Source of the DNA: Prevotella scopos JCM 17725
GTDB lineage: Bacteria; Bacteroidota; Bacteroidia; Bacteroidales; Bacteroidaceae
NCBI RefSeq assembly: GCF_018127785.1
Contig: NZ_CP072389.1
Location: 1,178,001-1,242,000 of the forward strand
Direction: 5' to 3'
Length of the DNA stretch: 64,000 bases
In this document: positions 35,790 through 51,881 of the stretch, one piece after another
Position numbering within the stretch: the first letter of the stretch is position 1
Layout of the letters: the number at the start of each line of letters is the position of its first letter
Notes under the pieces: model-generated
What the model was told of the DNA's origin: nothing
Databases searched by the model: none
What the model saw: only the letters and a program-made list of their open reading frames with translations
Made by a program: the position numbers and the translations under genes

Positions 35790-35822
35790 AATTCTATGTT
35801 GTGTTTTATATTCTTAACGGCT

Positions 35823-36638
35823 CTATTCTGTTTCCAAGGGCTGAAAACCTAATTGCTTCCGCGAAGAATTTGGATCAATATCAATTCCTGTTTCCATTTT
35901 GATTATTCCGCTCATATTTTCGAGATACTGTCTTTGCATCTTGAGAAAATCTTTCCGTTTTACTTTTTCAAATTTATTGGTACCAACATAAGTCTTACTC
36001 ATGACAATTGGCATATCACTAACCTTTCGTATTCCCACAATCGTGAAATGATGATAAGCATTGGTATCGTATGCCTCCATAATTAGTCCTGGCAAGCCAT
36101 GTAATTTCCATGGACCATCGCTGACAGGCACGTCAGGAGCAAACCATGCTGTCCAGTGGTGTCCTCTATAATCGCATGTTGCCATCTGAACTGTGTAATT
36201 CAAAATTGTTTTTGTGGAGTCTACCATCGTCCAGTTGATATTATTCAGAGAATCAACATAAATATAATCCTGTAGCGATAGTCCATCTGTAACGGTCATT
36301 TTGCCTTCGGGATAATTCTTGTAGACGTATGCCTTCATACGTCTATGAGGTGGGTCTATATTACTTGCAAATGCTTTATTTAATTGCTTTCTATAGATTT
36401 CATACCAATTAGGCTTAGACATTAAACTATCTATCTGAAGGCTATAGAAGCTACAGCACTTTGAAACTTTCGAGCCAATCAACAATACTAATCTGTCGTC
36501 TTTTGTTGTCCCTTTTACTGTATCATTCTGATAGCTATATTTGTATTGGCATTCGAATTCCGTTCTGTTTTGCAGTTCTTGCGCAAAAGTAGAATTTCCA
36601 ACGTACAATAATAGTATTAATATTAGGATTTTTTTCAT
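35823..36638 (-). CDS. GLPGLI-family secreted protein, 1
   Basis: 271 residues from ATG at 36638, the start of a signal peptide (MKKILILILLLYVGNSTFAQ); an upstream ATG adds 13 unlikely residues. GPWKLHGLPGLIMEAYD near residue 190 contains the defining GLPGLI motif, preceded by FRGHHWTAWFAPDVPVSDGP-like text typical of the family. GLPGLI proteins occur with TonB-like receptors in Bacteroidota peptide-export loci; no enzymatic activity is established. The preceding gene is a paralogue about 115 bp upstream and the receptor gene follows by 34 bp. Confidence 0.85.
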   Translation of the reverse strand: MKKILILILLLYVGNSTFAQELQNRTEFECQYKYSYQNDTVKGTTKDDRLVLLIGSKVSKCCSFYSLQIDSLMSKPNWYEIYRKQLNKAFASNIDPPHRRMKAYVYKNYPEGKMTVTDGLSLQDYIYVDSLNNINWTMVDSTKTILNYTVQMATCDYRGHHWTAWFAPDVPVSDGPWKLHGLPGLIMEAYDTNAYHHFTIVGIRKVSDMPIVMSKTYVGTNKFEKVKRKDFLKMQRQYLENMSGIIKMETGIDIDPNSSRKQLGFQPLETE

Positions 36639-36752
36639 CGCATAAACTATTTTCAAAATATTAGAGGCTGGACACATAATTCTGTGCTGATATTTTGCAG
36701 CACATACATACAGATAACAACGTTAATATCACTCTCATAGGCTTGTTTTTAT

Positions 36753-37610
36753 TTACCAATAGTCTCTTTCTATAAAATCATAATTGAGTTGCTTGGAAGT
36801 ATTGCCACTATCAAAGTCTATTCCTGTCATTGCAGTATTGATACTATTCTCGTTTCTACGAAAGTTCATCAACATTTTATTCATCTTCTTGCGTTCAACT
36901 TTTTCGAGGTTTCTAAACAACTGCTTGTCCATAGTGAAAGTTATAGACTCGGTGGTTTTCTGAAGTCCATTGATTGTAAAAACGTATTGTCTTCCGCGGT
37001 CGTACACCTCCATTATCAATCCTGGCAGTCCACCAAACTTCCATGGTCCGTTGCTAACAGGAACTTCAGATGCAAACCATGCAGTCCAATGTCTACCTCT
37101 GAATTCACATTCTGCTTTTTGGCATTCGTAGCCGAGTATCGTTTTCGTACTATCTTTCATCTCCCATAATTGATTATAGCCTGTTTCTTCATACTGATAA
37201 AAGTTATCCACGATTCTATCAATAAGTGTCAAAGTTTCGTTTTGTGGATACCCCTTATAAAGATAATATTTTATAGTGCCATGAACATGAGCCGTAATAA
37301 GATTATCATTTCCGGTTGCTTGATAAATTTTGATTGCTTCTGATAGTTCTCCACGAGATTTCCGATTACCATCAGGAGTCATGAGCAAAGAGTCATTTGA
37401 ATAGGTCTTGGGGCTATAAAATTTAGAAACTCTTTCACCTATCAGTAGTATGGGATAATCGTCTAGTACATTTCGACTCACAGTATCTTGCAACTCTGTA
37501 TAATGATATGAACATTTTATATACGCCTGATCTATCACTTTCTGCGCATAACTAAAAGTTGCAAAACACAGAAAAATACAAAGTTCTATTTTTTTTATTT
37601 TGCTATTCAT
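36753..37610 (-). CDS. GLPGLI-family secreted protein, 2
   Basis: 285 residues, signal peptide with cleavage near SYAQ (about residue 22). GPWKFGGLPGLIMEVYD marks the family. About 40% identical by eye to the next gene, so a tandem duplication is likely. First gene of the three-gene unit GLPGLI, GLPGLI, receptor. The 3' region ends ISxNYDFIERDYW, rich in aromatic residues. The 110 bp upstream region contains AT-rich sequence and a divergent IS relic; no clear promoter box. Confidence 0.85.
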   Translation of the reverse strand: MNSKIKKIELCIFLCFATFSYAQKVIDQAYIKCSYHYTELQDTVSRNVLDDYPILLIGERVSKFYSPKTYSNDSLLMTPDGNRKSRGELSEAIKIYQATGNDNLITAHVHGTIKYYLYKGYPQNETLTLIDRIVDNFYQYEETGYNQLWEMKDSTKTILGYECQKAECEFRGRHWTAWFASEVPVSNGPWKFGGLPGLIMEVYDRGRQYVFTINGLQKTTESITFTMDKQLFRNLEKVERKKMNKMLMNFRRNENSINTAMTGIDFDSGNTSKQLNYDFIERDYW

Positions 37611-37935: not shown

Positions 37936-40254
37936 TCGAATATCTTTTATCTCTTTGTATTCTTGATTACCTGTAATTTTCTTAATTGTAGAATGCTTAC
38001 CTTTCTCGAAAGTCCATTTTACGGAGAGTCCTATATATGGAAATGCGGTGGTATTATCATAGGTAGTCTTAAATAAATCAGTCTGTCTGGAGTATCTGCG
38101 CCCTTTTCCTGCAAGTCCAAACGACAACCCTAATTCTAATTTATCTTTGAAAAGTTCTTTATAGATATTTCCCGTAACATTATAGACGGTATAATAAACA
38201 CGGTCTAAGTTCCTAAATGTTGGTTCTAACATTATGTTCAACATACCGCCCCATCCTGATGGGAGGTTGAAACTATTATAAAGGGTATAATATTGTCGGA
38301 GTCTATTTTTGTCATATTTTATACCATCTAAAGTTATATCCTCTACATGCAATTCTAATTTACCCGTGGCTTTCATCATCCAACATTTCAAAGGGTGTAG
38401 ATTTAGCTCCACGCTCATCCCATACGCATTTATCCCATCAAGATTAACAGGGCGAGTGTAAAGGTAATTTTTATTCTCCGAACTATTTTCGGTTTGCCAA
38501 TAGATATTATTATTAGAGTGCATATAGACACCTGTTACTCCAAGTAAATTCTTAAAGAAAGAGAAAGAAGCCATCAACATATCATTCGTTGGAGCTTTCA
38601 AAGATGGGTTTCCCACTGAATAATTCGAGGCATTCGACCATCTAATCGTTGATGATATTGCTGAATATGGAATGTTCTCCAATATATGCTTAAAAGCAAG
38701 ACGAAAGATACTGCTTCCGTTTTTATTTAATGGAGCCATTAAACTAATCGAGGGACTTAATCCTCTTTGTATGTTCTTGGAAATTGCAGAGGATTCGTTA
38801 TCGCTATATGAAATATGATTTATTTGCCAATTTATACCAAAAGCATATTTTAATTTCTTGAATGCTCCTGCCAACTGGATATAGACGTAAGGGGTAAAGC
38901 CCTTGACCTCCGTTCTACTGTTGCTTATGAAAAATTCGTTAGCAAGGTTGTTTACTATTATTGGTGTAAAATGCTGATTCACATACTGAACAGCGCCCCC
39001 ATAAGTCAGTAGATTTCTACCTATGGGTTGAGTGAAATCTAATGAAGTTTTCCAAAGATTATTATTTTGCTTGTCAGCTGCTCCCACGCTTTCTGAGCTA
39101 TTCCCCAGATAATTTGTAGCTGTATTTGCGTGCCTGTTATAGTAATCAATCGTCAAATCTACCAAAATTTTACTCTTACCGAGAGGAGTTAAATACTTTG
39201 TTGTTACTTCTTGTTCAACTACTCGTTTGTAAGTTCTTATATTTATGTTATTATCGTCATCATAAGTATTTAAGTGTGAATGGTTGTGGTTGGCTGAGAT
39301 ATAGTAACTAAAACTCAAAGACGATTGTTTGTTAAGTTGTTGAGTAAGGCTCAGTCGATTAGAGAAACTATAGCCTCTATTATAGTCTCTTTCACAACTC
39401 TGCTTCTCAATGCCCGACAATTTATTATAAAGAAATTGTTTACCAGTCTCTTTATACTGATACCAAGGCAGAGATAAATTATCATAAATATGCAGATCCT
39501 TGTATCTATAGTATATCGTTCCTCCTAAACTTTCTTCTTCTATACCGTTCCCCTTGTGTGCGGTTCCCTCCGCAGACAAACTACCGTAATAGTTCCTATC
39601 GGCTATTTTCCTTAATGAGATATTGATAACTCCTCCACCAGTAGAGGCATTGGTGTTACTTCCTGCAAGGTAATCAACCTTCACAGAGCCTATCATATTG
39701 GCTGGAAACTTATTAAGTTCTTCTTGCGAGGTTATTTTAAATCCATTTACATATATTTCGCTAACAGGAAGTCCATTAATGTTGATAACTCCGTTTTTTT
39801 TAGTTATTCCTGGGAGGAATATCAAAGCATCAGCTGTTTTCTTTCCTTTCAAGATAGGAGAGTCAGTTAAGTTTACAGAGTACCCTATCGTGTTTTGTAC
39901 AAACCTTGAAGCCGATATAGTAATGCCATCCAAATTAACCGCTTTTGGAGATAGCATAATCTTCATGGGGGTATTATCTACCTGCTTGGTTTGGAAAGCA
40001 TCTTCATACGACATGTGAGATACTCTCACAATCACGATTTTGTTTTCGTCAGGAACCTTAACCTTGAATTGTCCATCTGCCAGCGTTATACAACCGCCTA
40101 CCAGCGTAGAATCAGTAGAAGCTAAGATGGCTACCGATGCAGACTCTACAGGCTTTCCTTGATTATCTAAAACATATCCCTCTACTTCCTGTGCATACAT
40201 AACACCATTGAAGGATAGCATTATTACTAAAAACAAAAATACAACTTTTCTCAT
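37933..40254 (-). CDS. TonB-receptor-like outer-membrane protein, 2
   Basis: 773 residues with a signal peptide (to MYAQ, about 22), a carboxypeptidase-regulatory-like domain (23-110), a short plug-like segment (KGKKTADALIFLPGITKKNG; STGGGVINISLRKIA) and a beta-barrel. It differs from the other two receptors in its plug and is closer to 'outer membrane beta-barrel' proteins that lack a TonB box. The C-terminus (HSTIKKITGNQEYKEIKDIR) is not aromatic, and the stop lies where an IS relic joins, so the last residues may have been replaced. It follows the radical SAM stub by 28 bp. Confidence 0.75.
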   Translation of the reverse strand: MRKVVFLFLVIMLSFNGVMYAQEVEGYVLDNQGKPVESASVAILASTDSTLVGGCITLADGQFKVKVPDENKIVIVRVSHMSYEDAFQTKQVDNTPMKIMLSPKAVNLDGITISASRFVQNTIGYSVNLTDSPILKGKKTADALIFLPGITKKNGVININGLPVSEIYVNGFKITSQEELNKFPANMIGSVKVDYLAGSNTNASTGGGVINISLRKIADRNYYGSLSAEGTAHKGNGIEEESLGGTIYYRYKDLHIYDNLSLPWYQYKETGKQFLYNKLSGIEKQSCERDYNRGYSFSNRLSLTQQLNKQSSLSFSYYISANHNHSHLNTYDDDNNINIRTYKRVVEQEVTTKYLTPLGKSKILVDLTIDYYNRHANTATNYLGNSSESVGAADKQNNNLWKTSLDFTQPIGRNLLTYGGAVQYVNQHFTPIIVNNLANEFFISNSRTEVKGFTPYVYIQLAGAFKKLKYAFGINWQINHISYSDNESSAISKNIQRGLSPSISLMAPLNKNGSSIFRLAFKHILENIPYSAISSTIRWSNASNYSVGNPSLKAPTNDMLMASFSFFKNLLGVTGVYMHSNNNIYWQTENSSENKNYLYTRPVNLDGINAYGMSVELNLHPLKCWMMKATGKLELHVEDITLDGIKYDKNRLRQYYTLYNSFNLPSGWGGMLNIMLEPTFRNLDRVYYTVYNVTGNIYKELFKDKLELGLSFGLAGKGRRYSRQTDLFKTTYDNTTAFPYIGLSVKWTFEKGKHSTIKKITGNQEYKEIKDIR

Positions 40255-40282
40255 CGATATCAGGTATTTGCAATTTTGAAAT

Positions 40283-40558
40283 TCATAATGTATCCTTAGA
40301 CATTAAACTACCCTTTAAATGGCTTTCATAACAATACCAGCATCTTAGATTACAATCCAAGGTTGGGTTTATGGTTATTCTTACATAATCGTCTGACTGC
40401 AATTTGGAATTAATCTCATCTACCCAACTTTTCATTTCATCATGCGCAGATAACACTATAAAACCACACTTAATAAGTAGCTCGTAAAGGCTTGGATGAA
40501 TTTCCTTTAAAGCTTCTATATTATGACATCTTTCTATGATTATAGGTTTAAGACGCAT
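40283..40558 (-). pseudogene. N-terminal stub of a radical SAM peptide maturase
   Basis: 91 codons. The stub ends ...ITINPTLDCNLRCWYCYESHLKG, with Cys69, Cys73 and Cys76 making the CxxxCxxC 4Fe-4S cluster motif of radical SAM enzymes. It then stops at a position where a full enzyme would have about 300-400 more residues. Homologous maturases of the GG-Bacteroidales peptide systems begin with the same 'INPTLxCNxxCWYCYE' text. The downstream part (AdoMet core, SPASM) is deleted and the receptor gene begins 28 bp later. As it stands it cannot be active. Confidence 0.7.
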
Positions 40559-40680
40559 ATCTAATGTTAGTAATTTATTTTATCTACTTTTATAGATTTT
40601 CGACTTCTTCTCCTTTTTATTACAGTTTGGTCTGCTTTATAATCTTGTCAATTTGATTATTTCTGTTGCAAATATATTTG

Positions 40681-41243
40681 CTAAAGTTTCACACCCTCAA
40701 GAAGTTAGCTTGAAACAACTGTTTTTCAATAATTGTTGGTAACTTTGTAGTGTTATACAGTATTGATTATCTTTAAATTTAAGAGTAACTTTAATATGGA
40801 TGCGAATCTAGACAATTTAAACGAAACTTCCAAGCTTTTGAGTGTTAAAAAAATTATAAGCAGCGATATTTCTCATTTTTCTCATACTTTGGTCTTAGCC
40901 ATCTACTCAGACTATGAGACCATGGGGAATTGTTTGCCCACATGGAAGAAGATGTAACGGCACTTACGCTATGGTATCGTGTACTGAAGTGCATAGAGAA
41001 CTTGCCTACTGCGCTTTGTGGCGTTCTTGGCTTCTCTGTTAGTGAGATAGGGCAGTTAATAGTCACCGACTCAGAAATGCGGAACAACTTTGAGATTATG
41101 GTCAAAGCATTGGAAGACAGATAACAAGAAAAGTTCACAACCGTAAACTTTTTTTTAAGCAAGTGTTAACGGCTCACCTTCATGGGCACTCACAAAGCAA
41201 TTTGGCTAAAACAGCCATAAAATAGAGGGGTGGGAAACTTTAG
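40681..41243 (+). mobile_element. Miniature IS derivative A (563 bp, both ends present)
   Basis: Left end CTAAAGTTTCACACCCTC and right end GAGGGGTGGGAAACTTTAG are inverted repeats. Inside, ATG at 40797 begins MDANLDNLNETSKLLSV, the start of a transposase-like gene also seen intact at 51993. It jumps to the 3' part of the gene (LTLWYRVLKCIENLPTALCG... to MVKALEDR, ending at 41124). So the middle of a transposase gene is deleted. The copy at 49866 has the same junction, which means the short form has itself spread. Confidence 0.75.
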
Positions 41244-41438
41244 TTCATAATCACTTGCTTTATACGTTCAGTAGCAAATATATGCAATATAAATTAAACA
41301 TGCAAGAAAATGAGAAAAAAATCTAAGGCTCTATAACAAATCATGTTGCACCGATATTCTTAATAGAAAAGACGGATAACTGATGATTTATATTGTTTTC
41401 CTTTTTCTTTCACCGCATTATTACGATTAAAAAGGAAA

Positions 41439-41918
41439 TTATATGCTATTTGTTATTTGCTTGACAATTCTTTGAAGTACGCTTTCATTGCTAACAAGTA
41501 TAGTTGCCGTGCCTGCCATTCCGCTGACGAGTTTATACTTGCAATCTGTTACCTTGACCTGTGCCGTGAACACACTGCCAGCTGCTGTTTGTCGGGGTGT
41601 ATGCGATGTGGCTATTATCTTACCATTGGCTGTTCCGTATGTCTCTGCATCGTAACCATCAAATTCGATGTTTGCTGTCATTCCGCTTGCCATCGTATTC
41701 ACATACTTATAAGGAATGGCTATTGTGCCTTGATAGGCATTTGTCATCTGCACCTTTGCACTGATGGTTTCGGGATAAGGTATAAAGTATGCACCAATCA
41801 GCAGTCCCAATATCACAATGGTGATAATCGTGATACCATAACGGACAATCCTTGACGGTATCTCGCCAATGATATGTCTTACTTTCTCGCTGCGAAGTTC
41901 TATCTTGTTGTCTGCCAT
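41439..41918 (-). CDS. Very short HlyD-like membrane-fusion protein
   Basis: 159 residues. N-terminal membrane helix (about 26-46: ITIITIVILGLLIGAYFIPYP), then a beta-domain ending SGMAGTATILVSNESVLQRI, which matches the membrane-proximal part of HlyD-type adaptors. The lipoyl domains and coiled-coil hairpin found in full adaptors (about 400 residues) are absent. Either the gene has an internal deletion or it is a minimal form that works without a TolC. It is the last gene of the exporter unit and starts 17 bp after the ABC gene's stop, so it is co-transcribed with the C39 exporter. Confidence 0.7.
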   Translation of the reverse strand: MADNKIELRSEKVRHIIGEIPSRIVRYGITIITIVILGLLIGAYFIPYPETISAKVQMTNAYQGTIAIPYKYVNTMASGMTANIEFDGYDAETYGTANGKIIATSHTPRQTAAGSVFTAQVKVTDCKYKLVSGMAGTATILVSNESVLQRIVKQITNSI

Positions 41919-41935
41919 AATCTTCCTTTCTGCTG

Positions 41936-44125
41936 TTAGTTGCCTAATTCTAACTGATTCTTTACAAGGTTATAGTATGCACCCCGCTTTGCTGTGAGTG
42001 CTTCGTGGTTGCCAATTTCTACCACCTTGCCTTTATCCAATACCACTATCTGGTCAGCATTTTTCACCGTACTTAATCGGTGCGCCACGATAACCACCGT
42101 CTTGCCTTTGTAGAACTCATCCAGATGCTCTACAATCATGCGCTCATTGTTGGCGTCGAGCGAGTTGGTGGCTTCGTCAAGGAAGATATAGTCAGGGTTC
42201 TTATATACGGCTCTTGCTATTAGGATGCGCTGTTTCTGTCCTTGGCTTAAGCCAACGCCATCGCGTCCTATCTTGGTATTGTATTTTAAAGGTAGCCCCA
42301 TTACATAGTCGTGAATACAAGCAATCTCGGCTGCCCTTTGCAATCTATCTTTGTCAATCTCGCTATCATCTACGGCAATGTTGCGAGCTATCGACTCAGA
42401 GAAGATTACACCATCCTGCATTACCACACCACACTGTCTGCGCCACCATTTTTTATTGAGCGTATTTACATCTGTTCCACCAATATTGATTTGTCCACCC
42501 AATACGGGATAATAGCCCAACATCAGTTTAATGAGTGTTGTTTTACCGCTGCCCGATGCGCCCACAATGGCTGTTACCTTACCTTTGGGGATAGTGAGAC
42601 TAACATCATCTATGATTGTTTTCAGTGCGTGAGGGTCGTATTTGAAGTTTACGTTTTCAAGGTCTATGCCCTTATCCTCTTCTTTCATTGCTGTTTCCAA
42701 TCCTTGCTTTCCGTTCTCATCGTCCATACGATGGATTTCATTGATACGTTCAAGACTTATCTTTACATCTTGTACGGAGTAGAAGAAACTCATCAACTGT
42801 TCAACAGGAGAATTGAGCTGACCAATAATGTACTGCACGGCAAGCATCATACCCAGCGTGAGTTGTCCGTGAATGACGGCTGTTGCTGCCACCACCGTGA
42901 TGACGATGTTCTTTAGCTCGTTGATGAAGATGCTACCTGCCTCCTGTGTCTGCTGGAGTTTCAGCGATTTCATCTGCACACCGAAGAGGTCTGCCTGTAC
43001 GTCCTCCCATTCCCAGCGACGACGCTGCTCGCAATCTTGGAGCTTTATTTCCTGCATGGAGGTGATAAACTCGTAAGTCTTGTTATTGTTGATGGCTTGC
43101 TGCTCGAAGAGTTCGTAATCAAGTACTTTTCTGCGCCTGAGGAAGAGTGCAAGCCAACCGCCATAAAGCAGACTGCCGAGCATAAAGATGGCAAAGACGA
43201 GCCAGTTATAGGAAAGCAGCACGATACTGAACACTACAAAGGTGAAGAGCGAAAACACGATGCTGAGCGTTTGCTGTGTCAGGAACGTATTTACACGGCT
43301 ATGGTCGCCCATACGCTGCATAAGGTCGCCCATCAGTTTGGTGTCGAAGAACGACATCGGCAGCTTTAAGAGCTTAATGAAGAAGTCGCTTACTAAAGAA
43401 ATGTTGATACGCAAAGAGATATGTAGTAAGAGCCAACGGCGGATAAAGTCGATGGCAGTACGGCTCACGGTGAGCATCAACTGTCCCAAGAGTATCAGCC
43501 AGATAAAGCCGATATTCTGGTTTTTGATACCCACATCCACGATGGATTGAGTGAGGAAAGGCAGAATGAGTTGCAGCAGGCTACCCACGAGTAGCCCCAA
43601 GACAATCTGTCCGAAATATTTTCGGTATTGTTTGATATAGCCAAATAGGAACTTAAATGAGCGTTCCTCTGTTGGCTGTTCATCTGTCTGCTTTTCATAA
43701 AAAGCTGGTGTGGGTTCCAAGAACATGGCGATGCCTTTCTCTTCACCGCCCGACTGAGTACTAATCCAGTGCTTCTTAAATTCTTCAAGGTTATATTTTA
43801 CAAGTCCTTTGCCTGGGTCAGCAATGTAGAAAGTCTTGCCTTTCTTAACCTTATACAGAACCACAAAATGGTTTTGATTCCAGTGGAGGATGCAAGGAAG
43901 TGATGACGATAATTCTTTAGTATTAGCAAATCCACATAAACATTCAAAGCCTAAACTCTCTGTTCCTTGTTTAAGTGCAGCCAACGAAATACCCTCTCTA
44001 CCTTCTTGGCAAAGTTCTTGGAGATAGTTTAACTTCAAATATGCTCCATAGTATTTACAAATCATTTGTAAACAGGTAATGCCGCAGAGCATAGAATCTT
44101 TTTGTCGATAATCTGAAAACTGCAT
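41936..44125 (-). CDS. C39-peptidase ABC exporter for double-glycine peptides
   Basis: 729 residues in three parts. Residues 1-135 are a C39 cysteine peptidase: Cys14 in LCGITCLQMI, His86 in NQNHFVVLYK, Asp103 in IADPGKG. Residues 165-445 are the membrane domain (six helices). From about 475 is the NBD with Walker A GASGSGKT, signature LSQGQKQRILIAR and Walker B YIFLDEATNSLD. Such exporters cut a leader after Gly-Gly while exporting the core peptide. The 52-residue peptide encoded at 47532-47690 has exactly that leader. All three catalytic residues are present. It lies between a receptor gene (12 bp upstream) and a short HlyD gene downstream. Confidence 0.93.
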   Translation of the reverse strand: MQFSDYRQKDSMLCGITCLQMICKYYGAYLKLNYLQELCQEGREGISLAALKQGTESLGFECLCGFANTKELSSSLPCILHWNQNHFVVLYKVKKGKTFYIADPGKGLVKYNLEEFKKHWISTQSGGEEKGIAMFLEPTPAFYEKQTDEQPTEERSFKFLFGYIKQYRKYFGQIVLGLLVGSLLQLILPFLTQSIVDVGIKNQNIGFIWLILLGQLMLTVSRTAIDFIRRWLLLHISLRINISLVSDFFIKLLKLPMSFFDTKLMGDLMQRMGDHSRVNTFLTQQTLSIVFSLFTFVVFSIVLLSYNWLVFAIFMLGSLLYGGWLALFLRRRKVLDYELFEQQAINNNKTYEFITSMQEIKLQDCEQRRRWEWEDVQADLFGVQMKSLKLQQTQEAGSIFINELKNIVITVVAATAVIHGQLTLGMMLAVQYIIGQLNSPVEQLMSFFYSVQDVKISLERINEIHRMDDENGKQGLETAMKEEDKGIDLENVNFKYDPHALKTIIDDVSLTIPKGKVTAIVGASGSGKTTLIKLMLGYYPVLGGQINIGGTDVNTLNKKWWRRQCGVVMQDGVIFSESIARNIAVDDSEIDKDRLQRAAEIACIHDYVMGLPLKYNTKIGRDGVGLSQGQKQRILIARAVYKNPDYIFLDEATNSLDANNERMIVEHLDEFYKGKTVVIVAHRLSTVKNADQIVVLDKGKVVEIGNHEALTAKRGAYYNLVKNQLELGN

Positions 44126-44137
44126 TAACTATTCATA

Positions 44138-46690
44138 TCAAGGTTTATAATAGAAACTAATCATTAGTTCTCTTCCTCTAATGTCTTGATTACTAAAACT
44201 ACTTGAAAACGTATTATTAAATCCATAGCCATAGTTTTTTTTATTGAAAACATTATTCAAAGCAAGACTGAAATCGAAGTATTTAACTTTAAATTTCAAA
44301 CTGAAATCCTGAAAGAAAATATCCTTAAATTTTTTCTGTGCGACTTCGTTATGATAGTATTCTGTCAAAGATTCTAAATTCAAAGTTTTACAAAGAGGTA
44401 TTACAACCTTTCCTTCATGCTTCCAACTATTTAAATTAGAGGTTCTTCCGAGCATAGGCATCTTCATCTGATTAAAACTATAAGTAAGCTTATAAGTAAA
44501 ATCAACCTTTTTTATCAACCCAATATCAATACTAGAAGTAAGTCTAAAATTTTTCCTATCATATGGCATTTGCTTTCCATTCTGTATTATATGACTATTC
44601 ATTACATCATACAAAGTTCTTACATTTAATATTCCTTTTATAAAAGGAATGCTCTGTGAACCTGTGAACAAAATACTCCAGCTATTGTATTTTGTATTGC
44701 CAGGAGTTAAGGATTCTACAATATAGTTGCCTATATAGTCTTGTGTTGATATATAAGGCGATTTACCAAATGCTCTAGTTAGTCGTAAGCGTAATGATGT
44801 GCCTCCCAAAGCATCATTATAAGTAAAGCCTAAACCCATATTTTTTTCTTTACTTAAGTGGTAATCAGCAAAGCCCTTGTTCATATATTGATAGTCTTGC
44901 AATACCACTGTTGGATAAAACTGAGCAGCATTAATTTGTATTGTATTAATGGAGGCATCCGCAAAACATTTCCATCTTGCTGTAACTTTCCATCTAAGAT
45001 GAAAATTAGGAGAAAATAGAAATTTATAATGTACATTGTCTAAACTATACTTATAATGATTGTAAGATATGTCACTGGACAATGTAAATTCAAAGTCCTT
45101 TATTATATATTCGATATCTGGATTAATATAGATTTTTGCAAATGTAAAACTACTTTTACCTATAAGTAATCCTAAGCTATCAGGAACACCTACTAAATTT
45201 GATGAAAAGGAATGGATACCTGCATTTACTCCTGCTTTTCCTGATACAACAAATTTGCCTAATTTAAAACTTCCACTTATATCTGTATTAGTTTCATAAT
45301 AATGCTGATTGATAGACTGTGCTGATGAGTCGACGTACATCTGTTGTGGACGAAGTTCTAATATATTCTTCGATTCAAAAGTAACAAGGCGTTTACCATA
45401 CTTCTTCATAATACTGAAGTTATCTTTCAGCGTATAAATAGGCAAGTTACCCAACATTGTATGTGGATTAGTTCCTTGCTCATTCAAACATTGCTTGTTC
45501 CATGAGAAGTTACCAGAAAATTCGTTTTTAAGATAATGATTGCTGGCATTATTCTCGTATTTAATTTTTGCAAAGAGGTTGTTGCTGTTTTCTACAAACT
45601 GTTTGCTGGTTTCCACTGCCTTTACTCCGCTATTCATATAATAATACGATTGTCTCAGTGAAGTAGCTTCTTCACGATTATTGGTATAAGTAACTTGTGC
45701 ACTTATCTGAGAATTTTCATTTATACGTTGTAATGCATTTAAACTTATAGCATGAGAACGATTAAAAAGCGAACGTCCTCTGAGTAATAAAGGTGATGGA
45801 GATGGGAGAGAGAGCAGGGCTGTTAGAGGACTATGTAACTCGTCAAAACTCAAAAGATCATCAGCCTCTCTTCGTATATTGTCGCCAATGTTATTGGTTT
45901 TGTAGGTAAGAATTGTTTGGAAATTTGGCTTAAGACGCATAGCAAATGTTTCAAATTTCCACAATCCTCCATGAGTCTTTAGACCAAGACTTCCACTAAA
46001 AGTAGTCATCCAATGTGCTTTTGCACCTTTTTTCATTTTAACATTAATGGCATTGTCGTCAGAATAAGTAAAGTCATCTAGTACGCGGATAGGTTGATGA
46101 TGCTTCATTACTTCAACGGTAGCCACATCATCTTTCGGTAATGATTTAGTTGCCAAACCATATTTACCATCCATCATATTCATACCTTCAATATAAAAAT
46201 TGCTTATAGTCTTACCTTCATACTGTATTTCTCCATTCTCTTTATTCACCTCAAAACCTGGAACACGTGCAAGAACATCTGATAGAGTTCGATCATTAGG
46301 CTTTGCATAAGTATTTAAGAGGTATTTTATAGTATCCCCACTTAATTGAACAGGTTTTGCTTTTACAGTTATCTCTGACAGCATTTTAGTATCTTCTTCT
46401 AATGTGATATACTGTTTTGGCATACTTTTCACAATCTTTAATTCTTGGCTTTTATAACTCATTGCTGAAATACGCAAAATAGTACCTTCCTTTGCTGTAA
46501 TAGTAAAATTTCCTTTATCATCAGTCTGGCAGAAATTTAATGTTTTCTTTGTGAAAACATCTATAGTTTTAATAATGGCTGCAGGTACTGGATGCCCCCC
46601 AATATCTGTAACATTTCCTTGTACTATCTCTTGTGCTCTTACAGATTGTACATATAGTAGAACCAAAATCAAGATAATATATTTTTTCAT
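44138..46690 (-). CDS. TonB-receptor-like outer-membrane protein, 3
   Basis: 850 residues. Signal peptide (MKKYIILILVLLYVQSVRAQ), carboxypeptidase-regulatory-like domain, plug-like segment with LSDVLARVPGFEV and FYIEGMNMMDGKYGLATKS, and a beta-barrel ending in aromatic SFYYKP. It is paralogous to the receptor at 33177-35789. It lies between a GLPGLI gene (10 bp upstream) and the C39 exporter (12 bp downstream), so transport through the outer membrane may be linked with peptide export. It may take up rather than release a ligand; this is not resolved by the sequence. Confidence 0.85.
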   Translation of the reverse strand: MKKYIILILVLLYVQSVRAQEIVQGNVTDIGGHPVPAAIIKTIDVFTKKTLNFCQTDDKGNFTITAKEGTILRISAMSYKSQELKIVKSMPKQYITLEEDTKMLSEITVKAKPVQLSGDTIKYLLNTYAKPNDRTLSDVLARVPGFEVNKENGEIQYEGKTISNFYIEGMNMMDGKYGLATKSLPKDDVATVEVMKHHQPIRVLDDFTYSDDNAINVKMKKGAKAHWMTTFSGSLGLKTHGGLWKFETFAMRLKPNFQTILTYKTNNIGDNIRREADDLLSFDELHSPLTALLSLPSPSPLLLRGRSLFNRSHAISLNALQRINENSQISAQVTYTNNREEATSLRQSYYYMNSGVKAVETSKQFVENSNNLFAKIKYENNASNHYLKNEFSGNFSWNKQCLNEQGTNPHTMLGNLPIYTLKDNFSIMKKYGKRLVTFESKNILELRPQQMYVDSSAQSINQHYYETNTDISGSFKLGKFVVSGKAGVNAGIHSFSSNLVGVPDSLGLLIGKSSFTFAKIYINPDIEYIIKDFEFTLSSDISYNHYKYSLDNVHYKFLFSPNFHLRWKVTARWKCFADASINTIQINAAQFYPTVVLQDYQYMNKGFADYHLSKEKNMGLGFTYNDALGGTSLRLRLTRAFGKSPYISTQDYIGNYIVESLTPGNTKYNSWSILFTGSQSIPFIKGILNVRTLYDVMNSHIIQNGKQMPYDRKNFRLTSSIDIGLIKKVDFTYKLTYSFNQMKMPMLGRTSNLNSWKHEGKVVIPLCKTLNLESLTEYYHNEVAQKKFKDIFFQDFSLKFKVKYFDFSLALNNVFNKKNYGYGFNNTFSSSFSNQDIRGRELMISFYYKP

Positions 46691-46700
46691 ATGCTGCTCT

Positions 46701-47459
46701 TTATTCTAATTCCATTTCAGGAATAATAATAACATTCTTTGGACAGCCTTTGGGATTAGCAGCCATTTTTAGAAAGGTGCAACGTTCTATATCTTCAAAT
46801 TTATTTTCCCAGAAATTATAAAATTTAATTGGCGATAATTGCTCTCTTTTTATATTAGTTGCAATTATATCCACAAAATTATCACAATGTACCGCTAAAA
46901 TCAGTCCAGGTAAGCCTCCCAATTTCCATGGACCGAGTGATAAAGGAATTTCTTCACTAAACCAAACTTTCCATTCTCGTCCACGAAAATGTGTTGTAGC
47001 CATCGTACAATTGAATCCAATTATATTCTGTGTACTGTCTTCATAAATAACCCATTTTTGCGTGGGAATATCCTCTACTATTCTATAATAAGAGAACCAA
47101 ACTTGTGTATAAGTTATTAGTTTCCCTTCTTCAAGATTTCTATAAATATAGTCTCCATGACCTGGGAATTCTATTTTATGTTCAGTTGTCTTATTATTGC
47201 TTTTGGCTGCTTTGATTTTTTCATTAATCACAGCTAGAGCAGTTTCTGGATTAGTTGCCAAAGAATCAAATTGTAACTTATGATAACTAAAATATTCACT
47301 TAGGTTTTTTCCTACTCTAAGTGCAAAATCATCATAACCATTACAATACTTTGTATGGTAACTGATTTCAATTATGCTTGGTTCTATTATATGGGTATTT
47401 TGTCCATAGCAGCTAAGTAGAGACATTATAAATGTAATAAAGAAAGAGTATAATTTCAT
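46701..47459 (-). CDS. GLPGLI-family secreted protein, 3
   Basis: 252 residues with signal peptide (MKLYSFFITFIMSLLSCYGQ). The family motif is in GPWKLGGLPGLILAVHC, preceded by FRGREWKVWFSEEIPLSLGP. Slightly shorter than the other two GLPGLI proteins. It directly follows the peptide gene after a hairpin (47475-47505), and the receptor gene follows by 10 bp. The peptide-GLPGLI-receptor-exporter order is the core of this locus. Confidence 0.88.
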   Translation of the reverse strand: MKLYSFFITFIMSLLSCYGQNTHIIEPSIIEISYHTKYCNGYDDFALRVGKNLSEYFSYHKLQFDSLATNPETALAVINEKIKAAKSNNKTTEHKIEFPGHGDYIYRNLEEGKLITYTQVWFSYYRIVEDIPTQKWVIYEDSTQNIIGFNCTMATTHFRGREWKVWFSEEIPLSLGPWKLGGLPGLILAVHCDNFVDIIATNIKREQLSPIKFYNFWENKFEDIERCTFLKMAANPKGCPKNVIIIPEMELE

Positions 47460-47474
47460 AATAATTATTTTTAA

Positions 47475-47505
47475 ATTTGCATAGGGGAAACTCCCCTATG
47501 CAAAT
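47475..47505 (-). terminator. Perfect hairpin after the peptide gene (attenuator/terminator)
   Basis: Arms ATTTGCATAGGGG (47475-47487) and CCCCTATGCAAAT (47493-47505) with a 5-nt loop; on the minus strand it is followed by TTTAAAAATAATTATT. It begins 27 nt after the peptide stop. A strong hairpin here, with the GLPGLI operon following, would keep the peptide mRNA abundant and let only part of the transcripts continue. Confidence 0.8.
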
Positions 47506-47531
47506 ATTAATATTAATTACGATTATACATA

Positions 47532-47690
47532 TTAGCAGTATTTATCGTAAAGATGACACCATTCTTCCCATTCGTCAAAAGAAGCATTCTTTTTAGAAAG
47601 TGCTACAGCATGAGCTTGAACAGCCTTACACTCAGAAGCTTGATAGCCTCCCAAAATACTCATCATTTGTGATAGTTCTAACTTTTTCAT
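47532..47690 (-). CDS. Double-glycine leader peptide precursor (bacteriocin-like/natural-product precursor)
   Basis: 52 codons. The leader is MKKLELSQMMSILGG (residues 1-15): the L-x-L-S-x-M/L-x-x-I-L-GG pattern of C39-processed leaders. The predicted core (16-52) begins YQASEC, is acidic in its second half, and has three Cys (21, 45, 52) plus two Trp and three Tyr. It is in the same orientation as, and 240 bp upstream of, the GLPGLI/receptor/C39-exporter genes, and downstream of the C39-like VKOR-thioredoxin genes. This precursor is the natural substrate for the C39 exporter; a disulfide-bonded product is plausible. Class (bacteriocin, signal or other) is unknown. Confidence 0.82.
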   Translation of the reverse strand: MKKLELSQMMSILGGYQASECKAVQAHAVALSKKNASFDEWEEWCHLYDKYC

Positions 47691-47766
47691 ATTCAAAAGT
47701 TTAATGTTAGTAATAATCCTAAACCATGCATACCATATGTCGACTCTAAGGTACCATGATATTTAA

Positions 47767-47789
47767 AGAGGAATTAGGCTATTTCCTCT
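47767..47789 (-). terminator. Hairpin after the VKOR-thioredoxin gene
   Basis: AGAGGAA (47767-47773) pairs with TTCCTCT (47783-47789) and is followed on the minus strand by TTTAAATAT. It lies 59 bp after the VKOR-thioredoxin stop and 76 bp before the peptide gene. Confidence 0.5.
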
Positions 47790-47848
47790 ATATACTCCAT
47801 GTGAGCAAAAGGGTAGCTATGCCTTCGACAACATGCAGTTATATTTTT

Positions 47849-48928
47849 TCATCGAAGTTGAATAATCTCATCTTGCATACATAGTAAATCTTTTATAGTA
47901 TATTCTTTTGGAAAAATATAATCGTTTACCCAGATATGAGGATAATGACTAATATTTTTACTTTGAAGCATTTCAAGCTGATGCCTATAAGCGGCTATTA
48001 AATATGCGTCTTTAATATTATTTCTCATAATATTCCATCCCCTTAATGCTTTCATACACTGTTTCTTGTCTTGGTGATATAGTCTTAACAGATTTAGTTG
48101 ACGAGCATTGATTTTAGCAAATACATCTTCAGGCATAGCAGGGTGATATACCCCATCTATTACAACTCTCCAAAGGAAGCGTTTAGGGAATTGTGTTAAT
48201 AAATTTATAACATCGTTCACAACTTTCCGACAATGAGTACAACGTAGACTAATGAAGGTTGTGATAACTATGTCGGCATTTTTATTACCAAACTCCATCA
48301 TATCGCTAATAGGATTTCCCAAGTGTTTTTTAGAGAAACACTCAGACATGATTCTTTTATTTCGTTTTAATCTTAATAATTCAATCTCCTTTTCATCTAA
48401 GATACTATCAGCATATGCAAATTTATAAATTATTATGCTCAAAAGAACTGCTAATGAAAATGCACATATTAAGTTCGAAAATGTAACTAGTCTTATTGTT
48501 GCTAATGATGGCTTTAGCAGGAAAATCTTTATCATTACTATTATTGTTATACTCAAGCAATACACACAATACTTGCGTATCATGAACAATTGGTAACATG
48601 TTAGTATAAGCATAATAATAACAGCAACAAAGTTAACTGTCCATAAGATAAAATTTGTGTATTGAGTTAGCATTAAATAGCTTATGCAGAAAATGAAAAA
48701 AAATAATCCTAAAACGGGCAAATCGAATGGAATCCAGCGCCTAAATGGATTTCGGTCAGAAACATATTTACAATCAAACTTAGTTCCCCTCATACAAAAA
48801 GGAATTGTATCATAGTTGTACATCTGCTTCTTAAGTAAAGTACCTGCAAGTGCCAACCCTATAATGTTCAGAAAAAAAAGAGCCTGAATCATTTTATCTT
48901 GAAGAATAGAGACACTACTAACTACCAA
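47849..48928 (-). CDS. VKOR-type membrane oxidoreductase with thioredoxin domain (3' part of a split gene)
   Basis: 359 residues. Membrane region (about 10-170) with the vitamin K epoxide reductase active site C121VYC124 and the upstream FDCKYV Cys pair region; a soluble thioredoxin-like domain (about 215-355) with CTHC (230-233). VKOR-Trx fusions oxidise cysteines in secreted proteins, using quinone as acceptor. The first codons as called (MVVSSVSILQ...) are in the middle of a hydrophobic helix whose earlier part is in the other frame, so this is the 3' part of one gene with the C39-like ORF upstream. The core peptide's three Cys are its likely target. Confidence 0.75.
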   Translation of the reverse strand: MVVSSVSILQDKMIQALFFLNIIGLALAGTLLKKQMYNYDTIPFCMRGTKFDCKYVSDRNPFRRWIPFDLPVLGLFFFIFCISYLMLTQYTNFILWTVNFVAVIIMLILTCYQLFMIRKYCVYCLSITIIVMIKIFLLKPSLATIRLVTFSNLICAFSLAVLLSIIIYKFAYADSILDEKEIELLRLKRNKRIMSECFSKKHLGNPISDMMEFGNKNADIVITTFISLRCTHCRKVVNDVINLLTQFPKRFLWRVVIDGVYHPAMPEDVFAKINARQLNLLRLYHQDKKQCMKALRGWNIMRNNIKDAYLIAAYRHQLEMLQSKNISHYPHIWVNDYIFPKEYTIKDLLCMQDEIIQLR

Positions 48929-49350
48929 TAAGAATAAAGTCGCAAAAAAATGCTCAGAGTATGATTATTAGATGGGTGATAATCCTGATGTACCCTGTTT
49001 ATTTTTAGAGTAACACCATTCCAAATAGATAGAAACTCTGATTTAGAAATAGTTTTGTCACTGCCATCATATAGGTATACATCATCTTTGCAGCATCCTT
49101 TTAATACATAAAAATGACCATTCTCATCTGTGGTATGAACAATAACATTTTTGAGACTTGACAAATGATCTATGTCAACAATATAGGATTCATTTTCAAC
49201 ACCGAAAAAATTTAGCGTCTTCGAGATCGATACCAAATTAGGATAGCATGGATCAGACAGGAGTTCTTTTATCAAAAGACTTCTATCAATTTTAACGTTC
49301 GAAACCTTCAACAGAAAAGAAAGTTCTTTAATCAAATACATTCTATCCAT
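48922..49350 (-). CDS. C39-like domain protein (5' part of the same split gene)
   Basis: 142 residues: a C39-peptidase-like fold (ENESYIVDIDHLSSLKNVIV; ENGHFYVLKG; YDGSDKTISKSEF). The His and Asp equivalents are there, but the N-terminal catalytic Cys position lacks Cys, so it probably binds rather than cuts leaders. In Bacteroidota such domains are fused to VKOR-thioredoxin. Here the frame shifts in the run of seven A (48944-48950, plus strand) and ends IFLRLYSYW. One more base would read IFFATLFLLVVSS and continue into the VKOR part. Start ATG at 49350; -7 boxes TATCTTTG at 49364-49371 and 49457-49464. Confidence 0.65.
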   Translation of the reverse strand: MDRMYLIKELSFLLKVSNVKIDRSLLIKELLSDPCYPNLVSISKTLNFFGVENESYIVDIDHLSSLKNVIVHTTDENGHFYVLKGCCKDDVYLYDGSDKTISKSEFLSIWNGVTLKINRVHQDYHPSNNHTLSIFLRLYSYW

Positions 49351-49363
49351 ATGACTGAACTTA

Positions 49364-49371
49364 CAAAGATA
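49364..49371 (-). promoter_or_regulatory. -7 box of the peptide-locus operon
   Basis: Minus-strand TATCTTTG 13 bp before the ATG at 49350. A second TATCTTTG is at 49457-49464. Neither has a perfect -33 box, so which is used is open. Confidence 0.45.
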
Positions 49372-49559
49372 AATATTAAGATGTTCTCAGGCCTTAGTGT
49401 CAGGTAGTAATACTTATGGTGTTGACCATTGTTTGGCTTTTCAACTCGTTCGGGTACAAAGATAGTATTTATTTACTAAGGTTATGTCAAGAAAAAGGAA
49501 AAAATAGTGGTTAATTACAAAAAACTTACAGCCTCCGCCTTTCATATTCTTGGAGATAT

Positions 49560-49795
49560 AGGCATCGGATTTTTTGCTCTGTAACGTTTCGTGCAGGTAG
49601 ATTTAGAAACTTGCATAGTATAATTTCCGTTACATTCATAGACAGACCTTAGATTTTCGAACTCATGAGTTTTATTAGCAAAAAGAGAGTATGAAAGATA
49701 TTCTAAAACTGAAAACTTTATTGTAGTAATATGTTATATTACGAACTAATCAAAACCTATTACCCATATGAAACGTTATAGAACCATAACTTCGA
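49560..49795. repeat. IS-like sequence with CTCTATAACGTTTC ends
   Basis: GCTCTGTAACGTTTCGTG near 49577 and, inverted, CATATGAAACGTTATAGAACC near 49768-49788 resemble the ends of the GGCTCTATAACGAATCGTG palindromes. The ~210 bp between them has no gene. The rest of the 49351-50676 gap holds promoter boxes and the element at 49866. Confidence 0.4.
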
Positions 49796-49865
49796 TTCTT
49801 CCTTTAACGCTATACGAAAAACATCTACGCATTTAACAGAAAAGTCATAAAAAGTCATTAAACAT

Positions 49866-50304
49866 CTAAAGTTTCCCACCCTCAAGAAGTTGGCTTAAAA
49901 TAACAGTTTCTCAATAATTATTGGTAACTTTTTAGTGCTTTATTACATTGATTATCAATAAATTAAAGAGTAACTATTATGGATGCGAATCTAGATAATT
50001 TAAGCGAAACTTCCAAGCTTTTGAGTGTTAAAAAAATATAAGCAGCGATATTTTCTCACTTTTCTCATACTTTGGTCTTGGTCATCTACTCAGACTATGA
50101 GACCATGGGGAATTGTTTGCCTACATGGAAGAAGATGTCACGGCACTTACGCTATGGCATCGTGTACTGAAGTGCATAGAGAGCTTGCCTACTGCGCTTT
50201 GTGGCGTTCTTGGCTTCTCTGTTAGTGAGATAGGGCAATTAATAGTCACCGGCTCAGAAATGCGCAACAACTTTGAGATTATGACCAAAGCACTGGAAAA
50301 CAGA
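49866..50304 (+). mobile_element. Miniature IS derivative B (right end missing)
   Basis: Left end CTAAAGTTTCCCACCCTC, start codon and the same internal junction as derivative A at 40681-41243 (the A-run at the junction is one base shorter). Similarity stops near 50304 after ...MTKALENR; the right inverted repeat is absent and the frame continues to 50493 in unrelated text. Confidence 0.7.
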
Positions 50305-50676
50305 AGTGAATGTTTCATATTATATGGGATGCGTAGTTGTTCTTTAATAGCACATGACTTTGTTTTTTTGTTTATGTATTTGAATTTATATGATTTTTAT
50401 TTACCTTTGCCTGTGCGTAGAGAAGTCTCAAAAGACATAAGCAGATTGAGCTATAAAACAGCTTTGGATTTACTGATTATAAGTAGTAAATAATAAAAGA
50501 TATTTGAAATGGTGGGGAGAAGTCTTCATATATCTGACACCTTTATAACTCATTGGTAATAATGTTTTTAAGGTTTATCAACGTATATAGACATCATCAA
50601 ATATGTGTCTCACTTCAAAAATAGTGCCCACAACCATTGAGAATTAAGTTAATGTCATAAATAAAAATACGAAATC

Positions 50677-51881
50677 ATGAAAAGGTTCATTCTTTTTTTG
50701 CTTGCCTTACAAGCATATCATTAGTAGCTGCTCAGGAGGTTCTTAACTGGAAAGACAACGAGATTGTATCTCCTATAGTAAATGCTGATAACACTTTAAC
50801 TATCAGTCTTTTTGCACCAGATGCAAAGAAGGTTGAGCTTACAGGTAATTTCCTATATGCAGGGAAAGATACTTCTGATAAGTATGCGGATGGTGACTGG
50901 AGCCCACAGCTGATGAATAAAGATGAAACTGGACGATGGACACTGACAACTGCACCCTTAAAACCAGAGTTCTACAGTTATAATCTCATTGTTGATGGTG
51001 TAAAGATAACTGATCCAAAGAACATATATACGGTGCGCGATATTGGTAATACATATAGTGTTGCGCTTGTTGGCGGCGGTGTAGATGGCTTGTATGCGGT
51101 AAAGAATGTACCTCATGGAACGGTAAGAAAGGTATGGTATGATAGTCCAACAGCAGGGATTAAACGTCGTATGACAGTCTATACGCCAGCAGGTTACGAG
51201 ACAAGCAATCGACGCTATCCTGTTCTTTATTTGCTTCATGGTATGGGAGGTGATGAGAATGCATGGGAAGAATTGGGTCGTGCCACGCAAATTTTAGATA
51301 ACCTCATTGCCGAGGGAAAAGCAGAACCAATGGTAGTGGTGATGCCAAATGGTAATATTTCGCAGGAAGCAGCACCAGGTGAGGGTTCTAGCGGATTAGT
51401 TACTGCTGCATTGCGATACCCTAAAACAATGGATGGAAACTTTGAAAAGGCCTTCCCAGATATCATTCAGTTTGTTGAAAAGGCTTATCGTGTGAAGAAA
51501 GATAAGGCAAACAGAGCTGTTGCAGGACTCTCTATGGGCGGTTTCCATTCAATTTACATTGCATTAAATAATCCTGACGCCTTTGATTATATTGGCTTAT
51601 TTTCTGCGGCATTCAGTCAGATGTCAAAGGATGGTGATCGTCTTTCTCCTATTTATCAGAATATTGACGAGAAGTTTAAGACGCTATGTAAGAAATCTCC
51701 TAAGCTTATATGGATAGGTATTGGTAAGGATGATTTCCTCTCACAGGATGATGAAAAGCTTCGTGCAGCATTGGATAAAGAATCTTATAAATACGTTTAT
51801 CTTAAGACAAAAGGTGGTCATACCTGGCGTAACTGGAGAGAATATCTGACTATCTTTGCACAAAAGATTTTTAAACACTAA
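50677..51881 (+). pseudogene. CE1-like esterase with frameshift in the signal peptide
   Basis: ATG at 50677 reads MKRFILF then leaves the correct frame at a T7 run (50695-50701); with one more T it reads MKRFILFFACLTSISLVAAQ, a normal signal peptide, and continues into the 322-residue frame (50913-51881) with no further breaks. The protein has an N-terminal beta domain (CBM48-like; LFAPDAKKVELTGNF) and an alpha/beta-hydrolase domain with GLSMGGFHSIY (nucleophile Ser) and a late His in GGHTWRNW. This resembles Prevotella carbohydrate esterase family 1 enzymes (acetyl- or feruloyl-xylan esterases). Its stop codon lies in the IS end at 51878. Confidence 0.72.

Follow-up and report, generated by a model that had tools for sequence, protein, structure and literature searches.

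A conserved double-glycine peptide gene of Prevotella scopos and relatives whose core differs in type together with the neighbouring GLPGLI and receptor-like proteins

This study concerns a short gene in a 64,000-nucleotide stretch of the genome of Prevotella scopos JCM 17725 (contig NZ_CP072389.1, positions 1,178,001 to 1,242,000; the whole stretch is called the window below). The gene, on the minus strand at 47532-47690, consists of 52 codons plus a stop and encodes a leader, MKKLELSQMMSILGG, that ends in Gly-Gly (a double-glycine, or GG, leader), followed by a 37-residue core, YQASECKAVQAHAVALSKKNASFDEWEEWCHLYDKYC. Before it lie a broken gene with C39-like, VKOR and thioredoxin parts (the disulfide gene) and a putative two-hairpin element, and after it come genes for a GLPGLI protein, a receptor-like protein, a C39 peptidase ATP-binding cassette (ABC) exporter and a short HlyD-like adaptor (Table 1). 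The initial annotation, made from the letters of the DNA, had claimed a 52-residue double-glycine peptide gene with a GLPGLI protein, a receptor and a C39 exporter bearing Cys14, His86 and Asp103 as same-strand neighbours. We found the frame where it had been placed, conserved, syntenic and with more synonymous change (pS) than non-synonymous change (pN); the three neighbours are present on the same strand, as are all three exporter residues. A leader ending in Gly-Gly and a C39 exporter with Cys, His and Asp in the same locus are the marks of a double-glycine substrate.

Ten distinct peptide genes, the window's included, were identified across seven genomes, for which we use handles such as G075 (an extra copy on a short G075 contig, G075:C2, repeats cassette a and is excluded from the peptide counts). 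All ten have the leader, at least two core Cys and, immediately downstream, a same-strand GLPGLI gene. The window peptide found matches in 4 of 200 genus genomes and a four-peptide model in 6 of 398 at E<1e-3, own genome included in both cases; at E<=0.1 the model matched 13 of the 398, the additional seven being weak. A nine-peptide model searched against 201 genomes of the family returned our own genome and one new member, G857, which had no part in building that model. The initial annotation had also ascribed the locus to Prevotella, and a Prevotella-group genome is supported; two of the homologous loci are named, as those of Segatella baroniae B14 and S. copri Indica. In the comparison of the locus across genomes that it had suggested, the frame and the synteny were kept, and synonymous change exceeded non-synonymous change in every pair compared: pS was above pN in 36 of 36 pairs of nine peptides (G857 left out), many of them saturated at synonymous sites. 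For the window and G185, pS was 0.75 and pN 0.34 over 51 codons, and the ratio of non-synonymous to synonymous rates (dN/dS, omega) was 0.14 to 0.31 for G318 against three G075 array copies. Homologs, synteny and dN/dS together rule out a chance reading frame; the gene is real and conserved.

The cassettes are of two types, type I (window, G185, G042, G084, G075a and G857) and type II (G318 and G075b-d), between which the core, the GLPGLI protein and the receptor differ together. Over 8 cassettes, identity between cores correlated with that between GLPGLI proteins (rho 0.74; 25 of 5000 permutations as high) and with that between receptors (rho 0.63; 75 of 5000), and the leader correlated with neither (-0.06 and -0.20, respectively). 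For the exporter (0.23; 6 cassettes, 125 of 720 permutations) and VKOR (-0.29; 5 cassettes, 98 of 120), the correlation with core identity was calculated from rounded identities. The new member G857 has a core with 15-42% identity to type I and 10-13% to type II, and its peptide gene sits directly before a type I GLPGLI gene and a type I receptor gene.

This arrangement is clearest in G075, where a cassette on one contig and a cassette on another share 98.3% identity over 1413 bp, a region that takes in the end of the exporter gene, the adaptor gene, the hairpin element and the leader. The identity stops at base 46 of the peptide gene, which is the first base of the core: the two leaders match at 42 of 45 bases and 15 of 15 residues, and past the junction the match falls to 29 of 114 positions for the cores and to 27-29% of residues for the GLPGLI and receptor proteins. 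G075 also carries three type II peptides in a tandem array with five GLPGLI genes; their leaders agree at 45 of 45 bases and their cores differ. As read from sequence, then, the cassettes have a two-block structure at the level of the two types, with core, GLPGLI and receptor in one block and a shared delivery apparatus in the other.

Table 1. Features of the peptide locus and its surroundings in the window (positions in nucleotides).
Feature	Position	Strand	Basis
Second cassette, no peptide gene found	33177-37610	-	receptor-like type II 33177-35789; GLPGLI 35823-36677 and 36753-37610
Radical SAM (S-adenosylmethionine) remnant, 91 residues	40283-40558		
Internally deleted DDE transposase gene copy	40681-41121	+	direct repeat flanking the cassette
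Short HlyD-like adaptor, 159 residues	41439-41918	-	HlyD profile positions 316-414 of 422, below cut-off
C39 peptidase ABC exporter	41936-44125	-	C14, H86 and D103 present
TonB-dependent-receptor-like protein, type I	44138-46690	-	CarbopepD_reg_2, 39.1 bits against a cut-off of 32.2
GLPGLI protein, type I	46701-47459	-	NCBIfam TIGR01200, 136 bits, cut-off 50
GG-leader peptide gene	leader 47646-47690, core 47535-47645	-	homologs and dN/dS
Putative two-hairpin element upstream of the peptide gene	47756-47846	-	model R1, 63.9 bits
VKOR and thioredoxin part of the broken gene, different frame	47849-48928	-	VKOR and Thioredoxin_4 above cut-off
C39-like domain, 5' part of the broken C39-like/VKOR/thioredoxin gene	48922-49350	-	Pfam positions 47-129 of 133
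Upstream region with promoter-like TTGACAT...TATCTTTG (49457-49490)	49340-49865	-	sequence match to contig C2
Second transposase remnant copy, same orientation	49866-50304	+	direct repeat flanking the cassette

The window core has three Cys, at core positions 6, 30 and 37. The initial annotation's count of three is right for the window; two is what is general in the family. Of the ten, only the window's peptide and that of G185 have three, and the nine members other than the window's have two or three. In a predicted structure of the precursor, residues 18-33 and 38-51 form two core helices, with Cys21 and Cys52 towards their outer ends (predicted local distance difference test score 92-96 for residues 21-50). 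The leader is similar to that of TIGR04149 (GG_sam_targ_CFB, the GG-Bacteroidales precursors), with which a search had been suggested, but the window peptide scored 13.9 bits against a cut-off of 25 and its partner here is VKOR; it was the sole match to that family genome-wide at E<=10. The whole peptide matched nothing in NCBIfam or Pfam at E<=0.1. In comparisons made with a family alignment from which the window's first Met was missing, PF14406 (Bacteroid_pep) reached 11.7 bits (E 0.32) against a gathering cut-off of 25, and ComC, lantibiotic and class IIb bacteriocin identities were rejected (best E 0.04 to 0.25). A search of the peptide profile against solved structures gave a single chance match (E 0.6). 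A leader scan of the window for a second GG peptide returned only the peptide gene and one frame within a GLPGLI gene.

The first description of the disulfide gene was incomplete. The initial annotation had named a VKOR-thioredoxin disulfide enzyme, and those domains are present, but they are the C-terminal part of a fused gene that is frame-broken in the window. In G185, G042, G084 and G318 a single protein of 498-508 residues, with a C39-like domain, VKOR and a C-terminal CxxC region, is encoded directly before the peptide (in G318, Pfam matched C39 and VKOR, and thioredoxin was absent at E<=0.01). The C39-like part in the window is without the N-terminal segment of the profile, in which the catalytic Cys of C39 presumably lies. 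All six Cys invariant in four relatives are present in the window's VKOR/thioredoxin part, which has the VKOR CxxC, two loop Cys and the thioredoxin CxxC, residues that we take to act in disulfide oxidation. The break lies at a T7 run in the region 48922-48960 and could be a mutation, a homopolymer sequencing error, phase variation or a site of frameshifting. The further proposal, that the peptide is a disulfide-bonded substrate of the C39 exporter, is favoured by the GG leader and by the exporter in the locus; the disulfide is plausible, with the gene that would make it broken in this genome.

The C39-like/VKOR gene is present in 7 of 398 genus genomes (E<=1e-20), and each of its five closest copies, the split one included, is followed directly by a GG peptide and a GLPGLI gene. 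A scan of the flanks of three remoter copies (G163, G306 and a second in G084) gave no peptide. An order-wide search gave it in 10 of 393 genomes, one of them our own, and a Cys-bearing GG-type peptide was seen by eye near the gene in 3 of the 13 order-level loci read. We found no description of the C39-like/VKOR fusion in the open-access literature searched.

Among the other neighbours, the GLPGLI protein has an N-terminal hydrophobic stretch, taken by eye as a signal peptide, and a predicted structure with the bowl-like fold of PNGF-II; among the folds listed, resemblance to LolA/RseB is weaker. Its signature domain is of unknown function in Pfam, and the open-access literature searched gave no link between GLPGLI and GG peptides. 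It differs from the N-terminal bowl-like (NBL) domain of PNGase F-II (PF22252) in having no match to a glycosidase domain, and the function of the NBL domain is itself given as unknown in the available part of its description (PMC9522356). We limit the name of the next protein to "receptor-like" because Plug, at 19.7 bits, fell under the Pfam cut-off of 23.9; TIGR04056 was likewise below its cut-off.

Two hairpins with a conserved loop precede seven of the ten peptide genes. In the first hairpin, compared over 7 sequences (four from one genome), 9 of 18 pairs change on both sides and 78.6% of cells pair. Its covariation score was 0.378, compared with 0.203 for shuffles, of which none of 500 scored as high, and with 0.12-0.22 when the structure was slid, a comparison that favours the structure, as it was derived from one of the 7 sequences and related sequences can exceed shuffles. 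Support for the element comes from this covariation, the second hairpin not being counted because it is unaligned; single-sequence energies, for stretches omitting most of the first hairpin, were no better than those of shuffles. Searching 21 sources with the model R1 gave strong matches (E<1e-10) solely before these peptide genes, along with 15 weak ones (E 0.04 to 3.8), several on the strand opposite to the true ones and one (E 0.17) preceding a GLPGLI gene of G042; there was no match in the G857 stretch or before the peptides of G185 and G042. Three of 200 genus genomes had strong matches, all at peptide loci, and two had weak matches with no adjoining GG peptide. Rfam gave nothing at gathering scores over 40000-51000 and two chance-level matches at a lax threshold over 47500-48000. 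A dispersed repeat was rejected as the identity of the element, there being no second copy in its own genome (best chance match E 0.18). The element might act as an RNA leader, or it might mark a site of processing or of recombination.

GLPGLI and receptor genes also occur in the absence of a recognisable peptide. A receptor search of 200 genus genomes gave 20 with a match at E<=1e-60, and the 16 receptor loci at >=35% identity comprised 5 with the peptide, 10 with GLPGLI and receptor in which no peptide was found (G091 and G030 read with a 1.5 kb flank only, G019 and G151 on contigs of 7-8 kb) and one, in G120, cut by a contig end. Among the genomes with these ten peptide-less loci, eight (all but G000 and G185) gave no match to the four-peptide model in the 398-genome search. 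Because these loci were found through the receptor, its retention in them is no evidence against a bacteriocin role, and loci with GLPGLI alone would go unseen. One of the ten, a GLPGLI/receptor array, lies in our own genome, on contig C2, and the region before it is 96.6% identical over 528 bp to that before the window's disulfide gene; both contain the promoter-like sequence, which we take to resemble the Bacteroidota consensus. The second cassette of the window shares 3390 bp of 96% identical DNA with G318, in which the peptide is present. As for the transposase remnants, DDE_Tnp_1 is above cut-off in a 485-residue copy in L063, and the genome has 12 full or partial matches.

What, then, is the peptide for? 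How probable we hold each of the following readings to be is a matter of judgement, and the readings overlap. The one we tentatively favour, while holding it to be somewhat short of probable, is that of an exported, disulfide-closed peptide recognised by the GLPGLI protein and the receptor encoded beside it and used between cells. Cleavage, disulfide, binding and biological role are what we infer here. The C39 exporter would cut after Gly-Gly and export the 37-residue core, and the C39-like/VKOR/thioredoxin oxidase would join the Cys near the start of the first core helix to that at the end of the second, stapling the two helices. The neighbouring GLPGLI protein would bind the core in the periplasm and the receptor-like barrel would bind it at the outer membrane. 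One block, of core, GLPGLI and receptor, would set specificity; the other, a shared one of leader, hairpin element, exporter and adaptor, would serve delivery. The likeliest use would be cell-cell recognition, with peptide types matched to receptors; cells retaining GLPGLI and receptor alone would be the receivers.

Several observations weigh against this reading. When the six type I cassettes are taken by themselves, the core correlates with GLPGLI at 0.34 (149 of 720 permutations) and with the receptor at -0.01, a weak and non-significant signal that leaves matching established between the two types only; finer matching within type I had been suggested by 7 cassettes (rho 0.70; 4 of 120 permutations) and was rejected when the addition of G857 brought it down to 0.34. 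No such VKOR neighbour was found for 5 of the 10 peptide genes (four of G075 and that of G857), which makes the link to disulfide formation a common one, not a universal one, and the window's own VKOR gene is frame-broken. The core of G857 is without the N-terminal Cys and terminates in CC, and the first Cys of the G084 core is at a different position. Linked regulators are inconsistent: G185 and G318 have a tetratricopeptide repeat (TPR) protein, G042 has both a histidine kinase and a response regulator, and before the G084 cassette none was recognised.

A bacteriocin is possible, if on the doubtful side. The peptide would kill related Bacteroidales, the paired GLPGLI protein would be a periplasmic immunity protein, and the peptide-less GLPGLI/receptor copies, one of them in our own genome behind a near-identical upstream region, would be orphan immunity. 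The patchy distribution of the peptide, the tandem peptide-GLPGLI array in G075 and the transposase remnants flanking the cassette all suit such a role. There is also a precedent in the bacteroidetocins, C39-exported disulfide peptides of Bacteroidota that, in the available part of their description, share with the present locus a 15-residue GG leader, a Cys-bearing core of about 40 residues, and a thiol oxidoreductase and C39 ABC exporter (PMC6671954); their target is given as BamA in the accessible part of a second report (PMC8546649). As far as the former source goes, however, the two described peptides have four Cys, against two in general and three in the window, and basic cores with charges of +2 and +6, against acidic ones here (net charge at most zero in nine of nine cores examined), and the four genes listed include neither GLPGLI nor a receptor-like protein, both of which are in our locus. 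The family thus differs from the bacteroidetocins in cysteine number, charge and partners, and a receptor-like protein of matching type encoded by the producer would be unusual for a toxin. Overall, the peptide may serve recognition or competition between cells.

Two other readings concern delivery and integrity. The GLPGLI protein might ferry the peptide across the periplasm, as LolA would, and the barrel let it out, replacing a TolC channel beyond the reach of the short HlyD-like adaptor. The match of that adaptor to the HlyD profile is confined to the C-terminal part, no outer-membrane-factor family was among the matches listed for the nine locus proteins scanned, the GLPGLI model has some resemblance to LolA/RseB, and for graspetides it has been proposed, in the part of the source available, that TonB-receptor-related proteins act in export (PMC8939145). 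Such an exit route is a poor fit with GLPGLI/receptor pairs that lack a peptide, and we consider it unlikely. Less likely again is a decaying locus, non-working in this strain, to which the frame break at the T7 run, the radical SAM remnant, the transposase remnants on both sides and a second cassette that would have lost its peptide could all point. Against decay, the genes for peptide, GLPGLI, receptor, exporter and adaptor all have open frames, G075 and G857 have the peptide with no such VKOR gene adjoining, and the break may be a homopolymer sequencing error or a frameshifting site.

To return to recognition between cells, Gram-positive double-glycine peptides of the ComC/Blp kind have a common leader and a variable core matched to receptor type. 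The present system differs in being Gram-negative and in its receptor candidates, a barrel and GLPGLI instead of a histidine kinase; Pfam ComC matched 3 of 9 members (best E 0.042). We think it somewhat unlikely, more so than a bacteriocin, that the locus is a full Gram-negative peptide "typing" system, in which a disulfide-stapled two-helix core, a LolA/RseB-like GLPGLI carrier and an outer-membrane receptor would be swapped together, as a unit, at the leader/core junction downstream of a conserved hairpin element, and cells would distinguish their own peptide type from others. If true, this would be the first function for the GLPGLI family. Through its peptide, the peptide-GLPGLI-receptor block gives GLPGLI proteins a ligand that can be tested directly, with the two natural peptide types and the natural core swap usable as controls, and it adds, for relatives of Prevotella that include S. 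baroniae B14 and S. copri Indica, a family of secreted peptides that are very short.

Radical SAM modification of the window peptide was considered and set aside: in G318 and G075 the radical SAM genes come with a Cys-rich GG peptide of 76 residues of their own directly upstream, and the window has only a 91-residue remnant. These peptides, with CSC motifs, lie directly upstream of the radical SAM gene in L038 (4815-5045; no Pfam match for this copy) and L039 (18314-18544) and look like its substrate. Another Cys-bearing GG peptide occurs within a radical SAM cassette in L103 (3525-3677). TPR proteins (Pfam TPR) are encoded in L006 (6277-7878 and 16379-17980) and L038 (12827-14563), each followed by a small DUF3244-like protein. 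By eye they have a lipoprotein signal, a membrane segment and a C-terminal DNA-binding-like part; they precede the disulfide gene and, in G185, a radical SAM gene, and are possible regulators.
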